Assembly (NCBI RefSeq): GCF_900638585.1
Contig: NZ_LR134523.1
Span: forward strand, 708,001-772,000
DNA: 64,000 nucleotides
DNA from: Aedoeadaptatus ivorii
GTDB lineage: Bacteria; Bacillota; Clostridia; Tissierellales; Peptoniphilaceae
Direction: 5' to 3'
Both the position numbers and the translations under genes were made by a program. This document shows, in pieces, positions 22,572 to 29,668 of this stretch (positions are counted from its first letter, which is position 1; each line of letters opens with the position of its first letter). The notes under the pieces were generated by a model that searched no databases, had not been told where the DNA came from, and worked only from the letters and a program-made list of their open reading frames with translations.

Positions 22572-23783
22572 GTGATCGTCGTCGTAGGAGCGGGTCCCGC
22601 TGGGATGATGGCCGCCATCGCCGCATCGGGCCGTGAACCGGTGCTCTTATTGGATCGAAATGAGAAGGTAGGAAAGAAGCTGTTTATTACGGGGAAAGGC
22701 CGTTGCAATCTGTGCAACGACTGTGCGGATGCGCTATTTTTTGAGCGATTGCACAGAAACGCGTCTTTTATGTATTCGTCGTATTACGGCTTTTCTACAT
22801 ATGCGCTACAGAGTTTTTTTACCGAAAGAAAGGTGCCGCTTAAAGTGGAAAGGGGCGAACGCGTTTTTCCCGTATCCGACAAATCGTCGGATATCATTCG
22901 CTGTCTAGAGCGGGAAATAGAGAAGCGCTCGGTGGAAGTACGGCTCCACTGTGCCGTCACAGATATACAGCCCGACGGCCCAAAATTTATCGTTCAGACC
23001 GAGCAAGGCGCAATCTCTGCCGATAAAGTGATCCTCGCCACCGGCGGCATGACCTATCCCAAGACGGGGTCCAGAGGCGACGGCTACGAATTTGCAAAAA
23101 AGCTCGGCCACAGTGTGATCGCCCCGTTGCCGGGCCTGGTGGGCCTGCGAACCGAACATGCCGATCGCGAATCGCTCACGGGTTTGTCGCTAAAAAACGT
23201 GCGGCTTTATGCCGAGGCGGAGGGGCGTATATTTGAAGAATTCGGGGAAATGCTGTTTACCCATTACGGCATCAGCGGGCCGATTGTCCTAAGCCTCTCG
23301 TCCAAAATCAACCGGTTGCCTGGGGTGCGTCTGTATTTTGATCTGAAACCGTCGCTTTCCGAGCAGACTTTAGATGCGCGCATACTCCGAGAGATCGCGG
23401 GGGCACCGAATAAGGAGGCGGCGACGCTCCTTGCCACCATGCTGCCCAAGGCGCTGGTGGATCCGATGCTTGCACATACCGGTATCGATCGCCACTTACC
23501 GTCGCATCAAATTACAAGAGAAATGCGCGCGCGGATCCTCCATTTCTTGAAGGCATATCCACTGGAATACCGCGGCCTATTCGATGCCGATACGGGGATC
23601 GTGACCACCGGGGGCGTAGAGGTACGGGAGGTCGATCCGTCGACAATGGAATCCAAACGCCACCGGGGATTGTATTTTGCCGGCGAGTTGTTGGATGTCG
23701 ACGGCCCCACCGGCGGGTACAATCTACAGATCGCGTTTTCGACGGGCCATCTCGCGGGAACGAGCGCAGCACAGGAGGTATAA
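22572..23783 (+). CDS. NAD(P)/FAD-dependent oxidoreductase, HI0933/BaiN family
   Basis: The 403-residue flavoprotein begins with VVVGAGPAGMMAA (dinucleotide site), then GKKLFITGKGRCNLCN, ATGGMTYPKTGSRGDG (about 157) and a C-terminal FAGELLDVDGPTGGYNLQIAFSTG that completes the FAD site. HI0933/BaiN-like proteins are flavoproteins of poorly defined function; BaiN was linked to bile-acid metabolism but most relatives are not. The start is GTG at 22572, as the nearby ATG (22570) is out of frame and runs straight into TGA. Confidence 0.9.
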   Translation: MIVVVGAGPAGMMAAIAASGREPVLLLDRNEKVGKKLFITGKGRCNLCNDCADALFFERLHRNASFMYSSYYGFSTYALQSFFTERKVPLKVERGERVFPVSDKSSDIIRCLEREIEKRSVEVRLHCAVTDIQPDGPKFIVQTEQGAISADKVILATGGMTYPKTGSRGDGYEFAKKLGHSVIAPLPGLVGLRTEHADRESLTGLSLKNVRLYAEAEGRIFEEFGEMLFTHYGISGPIVLSLSSKINRLPGVRLYFDLKPSLSEQTLDARILREIAGAPNKEAATLLATMLPKALVDPMLAHTGIDRHLPSHQITREMRARILHFLKAYPLEYRGLFDADTGIVTTGGVEVREVDPSTMESKRHRGLYFAGELLDVDGPTGGYNLQIAFSTGHLAGTSAAQEV

Positions 23784-24440
23784 ATGAAGATCAACATTGC
23801 CATAGACGGACCTTCGGGCGCGGGCAAAAGCGCCATCGCCAAGGCGCTGGCGGCGCGCCTGGGCTACGAATATATCGACACCGGATCGCTCTACCGCTCC
23901 ATCGCCTATATCGCCGATCGGGCGCATACGACGGAGGATATCGAGGCACTGATCCAAGTCCTTGAGGAACACGAAATCGACTACCGCGCGGGAAGCGCGT
24001 ACGTCGACGGACGCGCCGTCGGCGATGAGATTCGAACCGAGCGCATCTCATCGCTTACCTCCACGCTGTCGAAAGAGCCGGAAGTGCGCGCGTATCTGTT
24101 GGCGCTGCAGCGCCGTTTGGCGAATCGCGGCGGTACGGTTATGGAAGGCAGGGATATCGGAACGGTCGTGCTTCCGGATGCCGAACTCAAGTTCTTTTTG
24201 ACGGCGACCGAAGAAGAACGCGCAAGACGCAGGTATCTGCAGCGCAAGGAATCGGGGGAATCGGTTTCTATGGAAAAAATTCGCGCGGACCTGCACAACA
24301 GAGATCTTCAAGATTCGGCGCGCGCCGTGGCGCCCTTGGTACAGGCGGAGGATGCGATTCTCGTCGATTCCACTTCGCTTTCGCCCGAAGAGGTCGTAGA
24401 GCGAATGGCGACCTATGCGGAGGATGCGGATGTTTTATAA
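23784..24440 (+). CDS. cmk: Cytidylate kinase
   Basis: The 218-residue P-loop kinase shows AIDGPSGAGKSAIAK (about 6-20), YIDTGSLYRSIAY, the GRDIGTVVLPDA segment (about 121) and the RRYLQRK lid. It phosphorylates CMP/dCMP to the diphosphates. The following cmk-plsC-ispH-rpsA order is classical for Clostridia. The final codons overlap plsC. Confidence 0.96.
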   Translation: MKINIAIDGPSGAGKSAIAKALAARLGYEYIDTGSLYRSIAYIADRAHTTEDIEALIQVLEEHEIDYRAGSAYVDGRAVGDEIRTERISSLTSTLSKEPEVRAYLLALQRRLANRGGTVMEGRDIGTVVLPDAELKFFLTATEEERARRRYLQRKESGESVSMEKIRADLHNRDLQDSARAVAPLVQAEDAILVDSTSLSPEEVVERMATYAEDADVL

Positions 24441-25017
24441 TTTCGTCAAATACGTCGTCGGCTTTTTTTTAAAGCTGATCTACCCCTATCGTGTAGAAAA
24501 TTTTCCGAAACTGGAAGACGGAGCCTATATCGTCGTCGCGAACCATAAAAGCTATTTGGATCCCTTGATTCTATCGATCCTCTTTCCCCGGCAGATCCAT
24601 TGGATGGCAAAGAGGGAACTGTTCGACAATCCGATTTTAAGGGCCATCTTAAACGGCGTCGGCGCAATTCCCGTCGACAGAGAAAACAACGACGCCAAGA
24701 GCGTCATGCGCGCCATGCGCATACTCAAAGAGGGAAATGTGCTGGGGATCTTTCCGGAGGGGACACGGGTAAAAGAGGCGAATTACGGCGCCGGAAAGAA
24801 AGGAACCGTGCTATTGGCTTCCCGCACCGGAACGGAAATCCTGCCGATCTATATCCGGGATGCGTACAAGCCCTTTCGCCGGCAGGTCTTTGTATTTCGC
24901 GATCCCGTGGTTTTCGAAAAAAAGAAATTGACCGACGAAGAATACGAACGCATGGGACGTGCCTTGTTGCACACCATCTACGAAGGAGGAAGTTATATTG
25001 GAAATCTTGCTGAGTGA
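24430..25017 (+). CDS. plsC: 1-acyl-sn-glycerol-3-phosphate acyltransferase
   Basis: The protein of about 195 residues has an N-terminal hydrophobic helix, the HX4D motif in ANHKSYLDP (about 38), the WMAKRELF block, GAIPVDRE, and FPEGTR (about 110). It makes phosphatidic acid at the membrane. I chose ATG 24430 because GGAGG at 24419-24423 is 6 nt away; ATGs at 24415 and 24424 lie before or against that site. The gene overlaps cmk by 11 bp and ispH by 20 bp. Confidence 0.92.
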
Positions 25018-27070
25018 GTCTTACGGTTTTTGCGGCGGCGTAAAGCGCGCTGTAAATCTCGCCTTTGAGACCGCTCGGGAATACGAGAATGTAAAGATCT
25101 TGGGCGAGCTGGTTCACAATGCCGCCGTCAACGAAAAACTACGCGACGCAGGGGTCGAGGAGATCGACACCGAGCGCTTGCCCGAAAATGCGACGGTGAT
25201 CACCAGAAGCCACGGCATCCCGAAGGAACTGAAAGCGCAGCTCGTCGAAAGGGGAAACGAAGTGGTCGATACGACCTGTCCCTTTGTGGCGCGGATCTAC
25301 CGCATAGCGGAAGATATACAAGAGTCGTCGATTCCGGTGGTCTTGGTGGGCGATCCCAATCATCCCGAGATTCAGGGCATCGTAAGTTACGGCGAAGAGA
25401 TCTATGTCGTTACAAAGCCGGAAGAGGTGGATGCGCTGCCCCTCGAGGGAAAAAGTAAGATCGCGCTGATTTCTCAGACGACAAACCCCCGAAAAAACGT
25501 AGATATGGTGGAAGATCGCCTAAAAGGTGTTTTCACAGGCGAGATTTTAAGGTATAATACCATATGTGAAGCCACAAACGACCGCCAAAAGGCGTGTCGG
25601 AATTTGGCTAAAAATGTGGATTGTATGCTCGTTATAGGTGGTAAGAATAGTGCGAATACGATAAAGCTTGCAAAAATTGCGGCCGAACATTGTAAAAATG
25701 TCTATCACATTCAAACCATAAATCAACTCGATCTACGTCCATTTAAAAAATTTAATAAAATTGGTATTACCGCCGGGGCATCCACTCCGGATTCGGTAAT
25801 CAAGGAGGCTGTTAGTAGAATGGATAACTTTAGCAGGGATGAAATGAACAATGAAATGATGGAGGCCATCGAGAACTCCTTTACGCGCGTACGTCGCGGC
25901 GAGATCGTCGATGGAGAAGTCCTCTACGTAACCGACAACGAAGTCATGGTCAACATCGGTTACCGTGCGGACGGCATTATCTCCAGAGATGAATTGTCCA
26001 ACGATCCCAATGTGAAACCCGAAGAGCTCTTCCAACAAGGAGACGAAATTCAGGTTTATGTTATGAAAATGGACGATGGAGACGGTAATGTAGTTTTGTC
26101 CTATAAGCGTGTGGAAAACATGAAGGTATGGGACGAAATGGAAGAAAAATTCGAAAACGGTGAGATCGTTACGGCGCACGTTACCAACGTCGTCAAGGGC
26201 GGACTCACCTGCGAAGTCGACGGACTGAACGGTTTTATTCCCGCATCTCACGCATCGGTTCGCTTCCAAAGAGATCTCAGCAAGTATGTAGATCAGGATT
26301 TGGAATGCGAAATCATCGATTTCGACAAGGGCAGAAGAAAATTCGTCCTTTCCCGTAAAAACGTCGAAGCAAAGGAAATCGAAGAAAAGCGCAAGGAAGT
26401 TTACAGCACTTTGGAAGAAGGCGAATTTATCGAAGGTACCGTCCAAAGACTGACCAACTTCGGCGCATTCGTCGACGTCGGCGGCGTAGACGGTTTGATT
26501 CACATCTCCGAACTTTCCTGGAACCGCGTCAAGCACCCCAGCGACGTGGTCAGCCCCGGAGAAAAGGTAAAGGTTTTGGTCCTCAAGATCGACGAAGAGA
26601 AAAACCGCATTGCCTTGGGTCTGAAACAAACCACCAAAAAGCCCTGGGATGAGTTTATCGAAACCGTAAGCGTCGGCGACGACGTGAAGGGTACCGTCGT
26701 CAACATTCTCGACTTTGGCGCGTTCGTTCGACTCGAATCCGGCGTAGACGGTTTGCTGCACGTGTCTCAAATCTCCAGACAACACGTGGAAAAACCCTCC
26801 GACGTCTTGGAAATCGGACAAGAAATCGAAGTCCGCGTTACCGACATCAACTACGACGACAAGAAGATCTCCCTGTCTATGAAGGCATTGCAACCGGGTG
26901 GCGAAGACGAACCCGCAGGCGGCCAAAGACCCAAGAGAGATCAAAAGCCCCGTCGCAAAGACCGTCCGCAAGCGGAAAGTAAACCGGAAGAAGAAAACTT
27001 CTCCATGGCCATTGGAGATCTTATCAACTTCGACGAACTGGAAGCCTCGGAAGATCATAGCGAAGAATAA
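24998..27070 (+). CDS. ispH-rpsA: Fusion of HMBPP reductase IspH with S1 ribosomal protein
   Basis: The N-terminal 275 residues are IspH, the last enzyme of the MEP isoprenoid pathway, an iron-sulfur protein: [14 protein letters not shown] and [11 protein letters not shown] hold the three cluster cysteines, and TRSHG the catalytic histidine region. The rest contains four S1 RNA-binding repeats (first residues near 310, 395, 480 and 565) and a charged tail. Such IspH-S1 fusions occur in several Clostridia. The start is TTG 24998 with GGAGGA 7 nt upstream. The first ATG of the S1 part (25820) has its own Shine-Dalgarno. The first half continues the upstream operon; a terminator follows. Confidence 0.93.
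25530..25558 (+). promoter_or_regulatory. Candidate internal promoter inside ispH
   Basis: TTTTCA (25530-25535), a 17-bp spacer and a perfect TATAAT (25553-25558) lie in the IspH coding part, 262 bp before the internal ATG of the S1 domain. The sequence becomes visibly AT-richer from here to 25830. It could give an S1-only transcript; chance occurrence within coding DNA is possible. Confidence 0.4.
25802..25822 (+). promoter_or_regulatory. Internal Shine-Dalgarno and ATG at the IspH/S1 junction
   Basis: AAGGAGG (25802-25808) lies 11 nt before an in-frame ATG (25820-25822), and the following residues ([11 protein letters not shown]) look like the start of a stand-alone S1 protein. It would give a separate product of about 416 residues. 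The core is perfect but the spacing is a little long. Confidence 0.45.
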
Positions 27071-27082
27071 TCTGGAACTGAG

Positions 27083-27111
27083 TGCGCTTTCTGTAGAGAG
27101 CGCATTTTTTT
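27083..27111 (+). terminator. Intrinsic terminator after ispH-rpsA
   Basis: A 6-bp GC-rich stem (27083-27088 with 27099-27104) with a 10-nt loop is followed by seven T. It closes the gene run that began at 11.2 kb. Confidence 0.8.
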
Positions 27112-27122
27112 ATAGGTGAAAC

Positions 27123-27695
27123 ATGATTTCTGAAGCAATTACACTCGCCGTCGTAGGCGGATTGCTATTGGCTTGGCGGAATCGGACCTTCTTGTCGCCG
27201 CCGGGTTTTCGAAATCTCGCCGTAGCTGCGGCGGGGGCGCTGTTGTTTTTGCTTTCTCTGTACGTCTTGCCCGGGTGGGGAATCACTCGAGAGACCTTCG
27301 GGTTTTTGCACGCATTGAGCCTTTTTGTGATGGCGGCGGGCTTTTTCTGGGGCAAGCATATGGGCTATAAGATCGTTGGTACGGGATTTCTCTTAAACGG
27401 GCTGATCATCCTTTTAAACGGCCATATGCCCGTAGAGAGGACGGCACTGATCGCTGCGAACGACGAGCGCGCCTTGGGCCTTTTGGAGGCGAATAAGGTG
27501 CTTACCCACGCACTCGCGGACGGCGCTACGCGCCTTTCGTTCTTAGACGACCGCATTCCGTTTGCATCGCCGATCACATCGCCGCGGGTGATCAGCATCG
27601 GCGACATCTGCATTGCGATCGGCCTGTTTATTCTCGTGTCCTCGGCCGTGACCTACATTTTCAGGAGGCAACATCGCCATGAAATGGATCGCTGA
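27123..27695 (+). CDS. DUF5317-like membrane protein
   Basis: The 190-residue protein has about four to five hydrophobic segments (near 4-20, 28-48, 60-78, 82-100 and 160-180). Features recalled from the clostridial DUF5317 family are visible: LNGLIILLNGHMPV in the middle, LDDRIPFASP, then SIGDICIAIGLFIL in the last helix. Function unknown. It overlaps cdaA by 17 bp, so it is expressed with the c-di-AMP genes and may belong to the same envelope context. Confidence 0.7.
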   Translation: MISEAITLAVVGGLLLAWRNRTFLSPPGFRNLAVAAAGALLFLLSLYVLPGWGITRETFGFLHALSLFVMAAGFFWGKHMGYKIVGTGFLLNGLIILLNGHMPVERTALIAANDERALGLLEANKVLTHALADGATRLSFLDDRIPFASPITSPRVISIGDICIAIGLFILVSSAVTYIFRRQHRHEMDR

Positions 27696-28470
27696 ATCCT
27701 TTTCGATTTTACGAATTCAAGACATTATCGATATCGCCGTGGTGGCCATTATCGTCTATTGGCTCTTCAAGCTTCTCAGGGGCACGCGCGCGGAGCAGTT
27801 GAGTAAGGGGATTATCGTCCTCTTAATCCTCACAAAAGTAAGCGAAGTGCTCCAAATCTATACGATAAATTATCTGCTGAAAAATATGCTGACGCTGGGA
27901 TTTTTGGGCCTGTTTATCGTATTCCAGCCGGAATTGCGCCGCGGATTGGAATTTATCGGAAGAAGCAGTTCTATCCGCAAGGGGTTTTTGTTCACAACCA
28001 CTCGCGACCACTCATCGGTCGACGAGTTGGTGAGCGCCGTGGCTTCCCTTTCCAGGCAGAAGATCGGCGCGCTCTTGGTGATTGAACGGCAAACCGGGCT
28101 GAACGAAATCGTCGAGACCGGTACGCGCGTGTACGGAGAACTTACATCGGCGCTGTTGATCAATATTTTTATACCGAATACGCCGCTGCACGACGGAGCG
28201 GTGATTATTAAAGGGGATACCATCGTATCCGCCGCCTGTTTTTTGCCGCTTACCGAAGAAAAGGGGCTCAGCAAAGAACTGGGCACGCGGCACCGCGCCG
28301 CCATCGGCATCAGCGAAAAAAGCGACGCCTTCGCCATCGTCGTCAGCGAAGAGACGGGGTCGGTCTCGGTGGCCGAACACGGCACTTTGAGTCGGCATTT
28401 GGATATCGCCAATCTAGAGCAGCAGCTGAACAGTATCTATTATCCGAGCAAAACGGAAGTTGAGGAGTAG
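27679..28470 (+). CDS. cdaA: Membrane diadenylate cyclase CdaA
   Basis: The 263-residue protein has three N-terminal helices (about 15-35, 42-60 and 65-82) and a DisA_N cyclase domain with the diagnostic DGAVII (about 171) and RHRAAIG (about 203) motifs. It makes cyclic di-AMP, which controls potassium/osmolyte transport and cell-wall homeostasis. As usual it is followed by the YbbR-domain regulator cdaR; glmM, the expected third gene, is not here. Confidence 0.96.
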   Translation: MKWIAESFSILRIQDIIDIAVVAIIVYWLFKLLRGTRAEQLSKGIIVLLILTKVSEVLQIYTINYLLKNMLTLGFLGLFIVFQPELRRGLEFIGRSSSIRKGFLFTTTRDHSSVDELVSAVASLSRQKIGALLVIERQTGLNEIVETGTRVYGELTSALLINIFIPNTPLHDGAVIIKGDTIVSAACFLPLTEEKGLSKELGTRHRAAIGISEKSDAFAIVVSEETGSVSVAEHGTLSRHLDIANLEQQLNSIYYPSKTEVEE

Positions 28471-28472
28471 AT

Positions 28473-29668
28473 ATGCGCGAAAAATATCTGAATTTCATTA
28501 CGAAATACCGAGATACGCTGACCAAAGTTCTCTCTGTCGTCATCGCGATATTATTGTGGTACTACGTCATTACCGAGGTAGATCCCAAGATCACCAAGGA
28601 TTTTTCCGGCGTAGAGGTAGAGCTGCGCAATCAGTCGATTATGCGAGATGCCGGGCTGGAACTGTTGAAGGACGAAAAGTTTACCGTAGACGTACAGGTG
28701 ATCGGCAACCGTAGTGCCATCGTCGACCTGCAGGAAGGGGATATCTCCGCCTATGTGGATTTGGGCGAAGTGGCGCCGGGTTCCCAACGCCTGCCCATTC
28801 ATTTGCGCATCGCCGACGATACGGTCTCGGTAGAAAAGTCCAGTCCCAAGGCGATCAGCATCGCGGCCGACGAGATCATCTCGAAGGTGATGCCTGTCGA
28901 AATTACATCCACCGGCAAGCCCAAAGACGGCTATGTGCTGGAAAACATCACCGCCGGGCAAGAAGAGGTCAAGGTGAAGGGACCCAAGACCTATCTCGAT
29001 AAGGTGCGGTTTATTCGCGGGTACGTGCCCTTAAACGGAGCCACCGAGTCGGTGCTCGCATCGGTGGATTTGGTCGCATTGGACCAAAACCGGAACCCCA
29101 TACGGGGCCTGGAATTTGAACCCAAGAGCATTAGTTCCCAGGCGATCATTACCAAGGCGGTCACCGTGCCCATCGAAGTGCAGTACACCAATGCGGATGC
29201 GGCGGGATTTTCCGAAGAGCGGGCGATTCTTACGCCGCAGAACGTCACCATTTCCGGAGACGGCAATGTCATCGACAATGTCGGTTCAGTTCTTACCGAA
29301 CCGGTCGATGTCAAAGAGCTGATGAATGTATACACCATGCCCGTAAATCTCCGGCTCCCCGAGGGGGTTCGCTTGGTAAATCCCGACGAAACCACCTTGC
29401 TGCGCTATATGAAAAAGGAGAGTGCGACCAAGTCGCTGGATATCTCGACGAAAGACATCGCCGGCGAGAAGGATTCCGGTATATCGCCCGCCGACTTCCG
29501 CATTCCCGAGACGATCAAGGTGGAAATCTACGGCGAGAAGAACTTGCTAGAAGCCATCCGCGACGAAGACATTCTTCTTACCGTCGGTGAAAACGGCCGC
29601 ATTCGCGCCGAAGTTCCCAAAGACGTCGAAGTGATTAAGCTGACGCCGAAGCATGTACCTGCCGCCAC

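Follow-up and report, generated by a model that had tools for sequence, protein, structure and literature searches.

The window analysed here is a stretch of 64,000 nucleotides from Aedoeadaptatus ivorii (G000:C1:708001-772000), taken from a single-contig genome of 1.59 Mb. On its forward strand, an open reading frame at 24959-27070 encodes IspH followed by S1 in one frame (Table 1). The fusion likely starts at a TTG at 24998, placed inside the end of an upstream plsC-like ORF (overlap 24998-25017), and from there comprises 690 amino acids (77.4 kDa). The LYTB match in this ORF is the only one in the genome, which therefore has no second ispH. S1-domain matches number ten, four of them in the fusion ORF; the other six are single and found in six separate places. 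With a LYTB domain and four S1 domains within one ORF, and no other multi-domain rpsA in the genome, the gene belongs to the IspH-RPS1 fusions.

Table 1. Features of the ispH-S1 locus (positions in the window)
Feature	Position	Strand	Basis
AAGGAGG, Shine-Dalgarno of the likely IspH/fusion start, 8 nt 5' of TTG 24998	24983..24989	+	read directly
IspH-coding part of the fusion ORF	24998..25819	+	ORF list; Pfam LYTB residues 3-275, counted from TTG 24998; sole LYTB match in genome
-35-like TTTTCA, weakly conserved	25530..25535	+	read directly; consensus scan; relatives vary
Likely -10 box TATAAT, spelling Tyr-Asn within Y-N-T-I-C	25553..25558	+	identical in 17/17 family members; synonymous peak 25478-25567
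Putative 5' leader of S1 mRNA, about 255 nt, inside ispH codons	25565..25819	+	synonymous conservation raised over much of the leader
Conserved RNA hairpin, 7 + 6 pairs, 6-nt loop, 3-nt bulge	25766..25800	+	pairing in 95.9% of cells; synonymous third positions with compensatory changes
Internal Shine-Dalgarno AAGGAGG (codons Lys-Glu-Ala)	25802..25808	+	GGAGG in 178/181 fused genes vs 22.9 expected; 77/79 in second set
Internal start codon ATG of S1 (predicted)	25820..25822	+	ATG/TTG/GTG in 178/181 fused genes; all 9 Leu codons there TTG
Nested in-frame S1 gene of 416 aa with four S1 domains (coordinates include the stop)	25820..27070	+	Pfam S1, 4 stretches; ribosomal-protein-like codon usage
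Terminator-like hairpin with T run, just 3' of the S1 stop	27080..27107	+	consensus scan

The original prediction held that a second gene is nested in this frame, with a promoter (TTTTCA-N17-TATAAT) inside the IspH part and, further on, an AAGGAGG followed after 11 nt by an in-frame ATG. Both motifs are present as described, the promoter-like site at 25530-25558 with its 17-nt spacer, and the AAGGAGG and ATG at the positions listed in Table 1. The start was also said to lie exactly at the IspH-S1 junction. Here the coordinates are right, but the ATG still codes for residue 275, the last residue matched by the Pfam IspH model, so that the S1 start is located inside the IspH coding sequence and not after it. 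The protein predicted from this ATG has 416 amino acids and a mass of 47.1 kDa.

In one genome alone, a ribosome binding site and start codon of this kind could be chance; the comparison with relatives shows otherwise. A search with the fusion protein gave a match in all 61 genomes (the own genome and 60 relatives), and PF02401 searches found ispH in 133 of 148 genomes of the class and in 146 of 149 of the phylum. The loci used were 60 that came with the search results, plus 100 additional stretches selected from all matches, among which non-fused forms were deliberately included. After removal of two duplicates, the 218 ispH loci were reduced to 216, namely 181 fused (window included), 14 split, and 21 without adjoining S1, to which three loci with S1 only were added. 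A second set was taken from named genomes (Clostridium, Anaerostipes, Ruminococcus, Desulfosporosinus, and others); its best 80 loci comprised 79 fused genes and one that is not fused (L250). The window belongs to a family clade of 17 members (L001-L017, window included), with a gene GC of 31-51%.

GGAGG was found 11 nt before the start column in 178 of the 181 non-redundant fused genes, and the spacing is 11 nt in all 178. When the genes were recoded synonymously according to their individual codon usage (2000 simulations), 22.9 genes were expected and 39 was the maximum, by which a reading of the site as chance or coding constraint was rejected. Genes under 35% GC carry the motif in 52 of 52 cases (expected 2.1), and elsewhere in the same fused genes it occurs in 42 of 755 [KE]E[VAG] tripeptides. 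The column itself holds a start codon in 178 of the 181 genes (ATG 163, TTG 9, GTG 6), and the remaining three (L162, L207, L208) have an ATG one codon earlier. When the residue at this column is Leu, it is always encoded by TTG (9/9, expected 1.8). Both features are at their exact place in 175 of the 181 fused genes. The exceptions for the Shine-Dalgarno are L214 and L215, with GAGGGGG in place of GGAGG, and L209, in which GGAGG and ATG are placed further on. In the second set (best 80 loci), both features are present in 77 of the 79 fused genes; five of these 79 repeat junctions of the first set, leaving 72 of 74 as new support. Shifted sites were seen in L284 (GGAGG, with an in-frame ATG 10 codons further on) and L241 (GGTGAGGG, with an in-frame ATG nine codons further on), and the signal is absent from the non-fused L250. 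The relatives thus keep the predicted AAGGAGG and ATG, and their conservation exceeds what coding needs. From these comparisons, we consider an internal ribosome binding site close to certain, while its spacing counts against it, being 11 nt where the IspH start of this gene has 8 nt.

The relatives in which the two genes are not fused paint a similar picture. GGAGG is missing from 20 of the 21 ispH genes without adjoining S1; L153 has it and L157 has a start-type codon at the column (TTG). The two features never occur together in these genes, and the column residue is Leu or Ile, never Met. Nine of the 14 split loci (L067, L068, L077, L091, L133, L191, L192, L198, L205) carry S1 in another frame, with its start, as inferred by eye, directly 3' of a GGAGG lying inside ispH (GTG in L191 and L192, ATG in the other seven). 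Because S1 is in a different frame, the site in these nine loci must start S1 by itself. In the other split loci, S1 lies downstream with no overlap (L061, L123, L126, L189) or on the opposite strand (L193). A fused locus (L209, in G305) and an overlapping one (L205, in G339) were found in the same genus with the same ribosome binding site, sharing the stretch CAGGAGGAATGG(G)ACATGAGTGAA. One extra G brings L209 into the fused frame, next to nearby substitutions, with a sequencing error being possible in these draft genomes.

Three relatives from the window's family (G009, G018, and G036, loci L062, L063, and L064) have kept S1 and have no LYTB match, and may lack the MEP pathway. All three have the homologous ATG as the earliest start codon of their S1 ORF. 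The sequence in G018 reads stop codon, then GAGGTCGTCAACAGA-ATG, and GAGGTCGTCAACAGA resembles what is left of an IspH tail; this genome is 91% complete and in 130 contigs, which makes the absence of ispH there less sure. G042 and G058 have kept ispH, and the rpsA model gives only short, single-domain-sized matches in them (positions 3-345 in the same search of the fused G069). Their ispH genes have GAAGAT or GAAAAT at the Shine-Dalgarno place and CTA or TTA at the start column. The same signal thus appears to accompany S1 in split and S1-only relatives, and to be absent where S1 is absent.

Codon usage changes within the ORF. The codon adaptation index (CAI) is 0.488 in the IspH part versus 0.749 in the S1 part. 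The reference consisted of 25 ribosomal-protein genes from this genome (mean 0.726), and 54 ORFs of the window have a median of 0.558. The IspH part is therefore ordinary, and the S1 part is at the level of ribosomal proteins. If only the fusion were made, both halves would be translated equally; the step therefore speaks for additional translation of S1. It is also consistent with the premise of the original prediction, that S1 is needed in large amount. Among 178 fused genes, 125 have a larger proportion of C-ending codons for Phe, Tyr, Ile, and Asn in their S1 part; with a single sequence taken from each 60% cluster, the count is 69 of 101 (p 3e-6). In the other 53 of the 178, the share of these optimal codons is not higher, which counts against such a step, and part of it could be inherited from the pre-fusion state. 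Together, the conservation of the site, the split, S1-only, and ispH-only relatives, and the codon adaptation support the predicted separate start at 25820 of an S1 of about 416 residues.

The stretch immediately 5' of the internal Shine-Dalgarno, ending one base before it, can pair as a hairpin of 7 + 6 bp. Among the 17 family members (13 distinct rows), slid versions of the hairpin give 13.6-43.8% paired cells, versus 95.9% at the actual place. Cells changed on both sides number 10 against 3.7 in shuffles, and the covariation score of 0.187 (0.085 in shuffles) was reached by none of 500. Three pairs have a two-sided change, and 84 of 500 shuffles attain as many. Changes counted on a quick S1-part tree that has five open forks are five for the Ala third position, four for its Pro partner, and five for their joint state. 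When all fused genes are considered, two hairpin pairs rank first and second among third-position pairs (z 8.3 and 5.7), and in ispH-only genes 7 of 18 are complementary versus 5.2. Outside the clade, the results are positive with one sequence per 60% cluster (43/99 vs 25.3 and 52/99 vs 30.3) and in the named set of the best 80 loci (38/74 vs 21.2 and 35/74 vs 21.5). In 88 disjoint nearest pairs outside the clade, however, the hairpin pairs are not among the eight best of 190 codon pairs, and in sister pairs with both sides changed, wobble allowed, pairing was kept in 5 and broken in 14 for codons 5-10, and in 7 and 17 for codons 6-9. Since these tests are mixed, we claim a conserved RNA structure upstream of the ribosome binding site for the 17-member clade, and regard it as suggestive outside. 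Rfam gave no match up to an E of 1 in 24700-27300, and so points to no known leader family. An autoregulation of S1 through this leader is speculative. A pairing of CUCC with the Shine-Dalgarno, proposed by eye, was dropped, as the CUCC is not kept in all relatives.

Of the predicted internal promoter, the -10 box withstood the comparison, with TATAAT identical in all 17 family members despite their range of GC, whereas the -35 place is variable (TTTTCA, TTTCCT, TTTCAT, TTTGCA, TTTTAA or TTTCAA) and the consensus score is not significant. The 25530-25558 site scores best in 15 of the 17 members, with p 0.08-0.63 against synonymous shuffles. No clade member reaches p <=0.05 (17 genes, mean z 0.98), compared with 9% of the 164 other fused genes (mean z 0.61), and the mean z of the 21 ispH-only genes is -0.25. 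The claim of a promoter therefore rests on conservation. Synonymous constraint in the 17 members has two peaks, one at the promoter (excess identity over the codon-usage expectation +0.40 and +0.38 in 25508-25567) and one at the ribosome binding site (+0.36 to +0.55 in 25718-25837), with +0.06 to +0.24 between them and -0.06 to +0.25 elsewhere. The eight genomes of the genus all agree at 11 of the 12 conserved degenerate codons in 25538-25582, versus 0 of 10 in a comparison stretch at 25268-25312; a few windows of the S1 part also reach about 0.7 in this comparison. Outside the clade, the excess in 99 pairs at 60-80% identity is likewise raised, at codons -138 to -90 (a maximum of +0.17, and a dip within) and at codons -30 to +6 (+0.19 to +0.36). 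The 69 ispH-only pairs have scattered raised bins up to +0.22, without a peak of that height at the ribosome binding site. An internal promoter is likely on this conservation. It could also be that translation alone starts internally, on the long operon mRNA, and that TATAAT merely spells codons of Y-N-T-I-C. The variable -35, the scores of the single genes, and the number of promoter-like sites in 23000-29000 (two, against 4.5 expected in shuffles) would fit with this, but not the synonymous codons near the -10, far above expectation in the clade, nor the raised stretch upstream of the ribosome binding site outside it. We thus regard a start without a promoter as unlikely.

We propose, with high confidence, that the locus harbors two genes in one reading frame, and that the 3' third of ispH would serve as promoter, leader, and ribosome binding site of a stand-alone S1 besides the fusion. 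Very probably, the gene yields two proteins, not one. On long operon transcripts, translation from TTG 24998 would give the IspH-S1 fusion. The promoter inside ispH would give a shorter mRNA, for which we infer a start near 25565 from the position of the -10 box. The strong Shine-Dalgarno, behind a hairpin with a possible regulatory role, would then direct ribosomes to ATG 25820. This would yield free S1 of 47 kDa with four domains, more abundantly than the fusion, and the terminator-like hairpin would follow after S1.

Other readings of the site differ in how well they account for these results. The GGAGG could be a pause site, which helps IspH to fold before S1 is translated and makes no separate S1, as its location at a domain junction within an open frame would allow. 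A pause needs no start codon, though, and yet one follows 11 nt on in nearly all fused genes. Moreover, S1 can only be started separately in the nine split loci, three S1-only relatives start there, and codon usage steps up at the site, which leaves this explanation very improbable. Hardly any weight can be given to a coincidence of coding, by which Lys-Glu-Ala and Met of the IspH C-terminal helix happen to spell a Shine-Dalgarno and an ATG. These residues are indeed within the conserved IspH end, and for one genome taken alone a coincidence is possible, but the codon choice refutes it for the ribosome binding site across relatives, and the ispH-only genes never combine the two features.

A doubtful but more serious option is that S1 comes almost only from the internal start, and that the fusion is a functionless minor by-product of overlapping genes fallen into one frame. 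Fused and overlapping forms are, besides substitutions, one inserted base apart in one genus. In addition, when the 181 fused genes are aligned, the codon of IspH residue 1 is ATG in 69, TTG in 65, and GTG in 16, the rest having no start codon; TTG or GTG thus stand in 81 of the 150 genes with a start-type codon at this residue, which suggests weak IspH starts. Against a mere by-product, the fused frame was read in the ORFs of 53 of the 61 genomes of the window's order, and hence was retained over long times, and in fused genomes IspH is readable only as part of the fusion. We would put forward only tentatively, as a rather improbable extension, that the 3' third of ispH has a dual use as enzyme code and as promoter and structured leader of S1, through which S1 or the ribosome tunes S1 synthesis. 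The fusion would then be mainly a consequence of an ancient overlap with a shared ribosome binding site, with small indels switching it back and forth between the fused and the overlapping form.

Two proteins from one frame, as preferred here, have precedents. The bacterial genes infB (forms of IF2) and cheA have two in-frame starts, and an internal ribosome binding site gives the shorter C-terminal form. The proposed S1 would likewise be a shorter C-terminal form from an internal site in the same frame. It differs from infB and cheA in that the internal product would be an entire second protein, preceded by a promoter-like region of its own, and in that relatives have the arrangement again in the form of separate, overlapping genes. 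The leader of rpsA in E. coli is a ribosomal-protein mRNA leader. As in such leaders, a structured stretch adjoins the ribosome binding site of a gene for a ribosomal-type protein, but the candidate leader is embedded in an enzyme's coding sequence and has no Rfam match. A list of 20 ribosomal-protein leader candidates has been published (PMC7247131), with no mention of rpsA or ispH in its text.

IspH-RPS1 fusions are known as 'Rosetta stone' proteins, with 447 sequences described by Rao et al. 2015 (PMC4746011). The enzyme of C. thermocellum is active there, and removal of the S1 repeats hardly alters its IspH activity. Our gene resembles these fusions, as described in that text, in having IspH and then four S1 domains in one ORF, in a single ispH, and in the occurrence in mostly anaerobic Firmicutes. 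In this source, the fusion has so far been regarded as a single protein that exemplifies a functional link between joined domains, unlike the conserved second start found here; its main text has no mention of a start codon, 'Shine' or 'internal'. By title and abstract, in a search with subscription journals mostly outside its scope, we found no report of an internal S1 start in ispH-rpsA genes. If free S1 is made in most carriers, a stand-alone S1 would have been hidden by the one-ORF reading. The argument for a physical link between IspH and S1 would weaken, and translation studies in Clostridia would have to count a second product. The locus would also be a clear case of strong selection at the nucleotide level (promoter, leader hairpin, and ribosome binding site) within an enzyme coding sequence.

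Some further observations concern the composition and layout of the locus. An AT-rich patch at 25540-25820 coincides with the promoter and leader region: the GC is 0.35-0.41 in 150-base windows of 25500-25849, whereas most of the ispH part upstream lies at about 0.52-0.59 and the S1 part at 0.41-0.57. The linker from the IspH end to the first S1 domain is longer in two fused relatives (L060 and L066). Opposite S1, the minus strand has an open frame of 441 amino acids (25733-27058), which is perhaps a by-product of the S1 codon bias.
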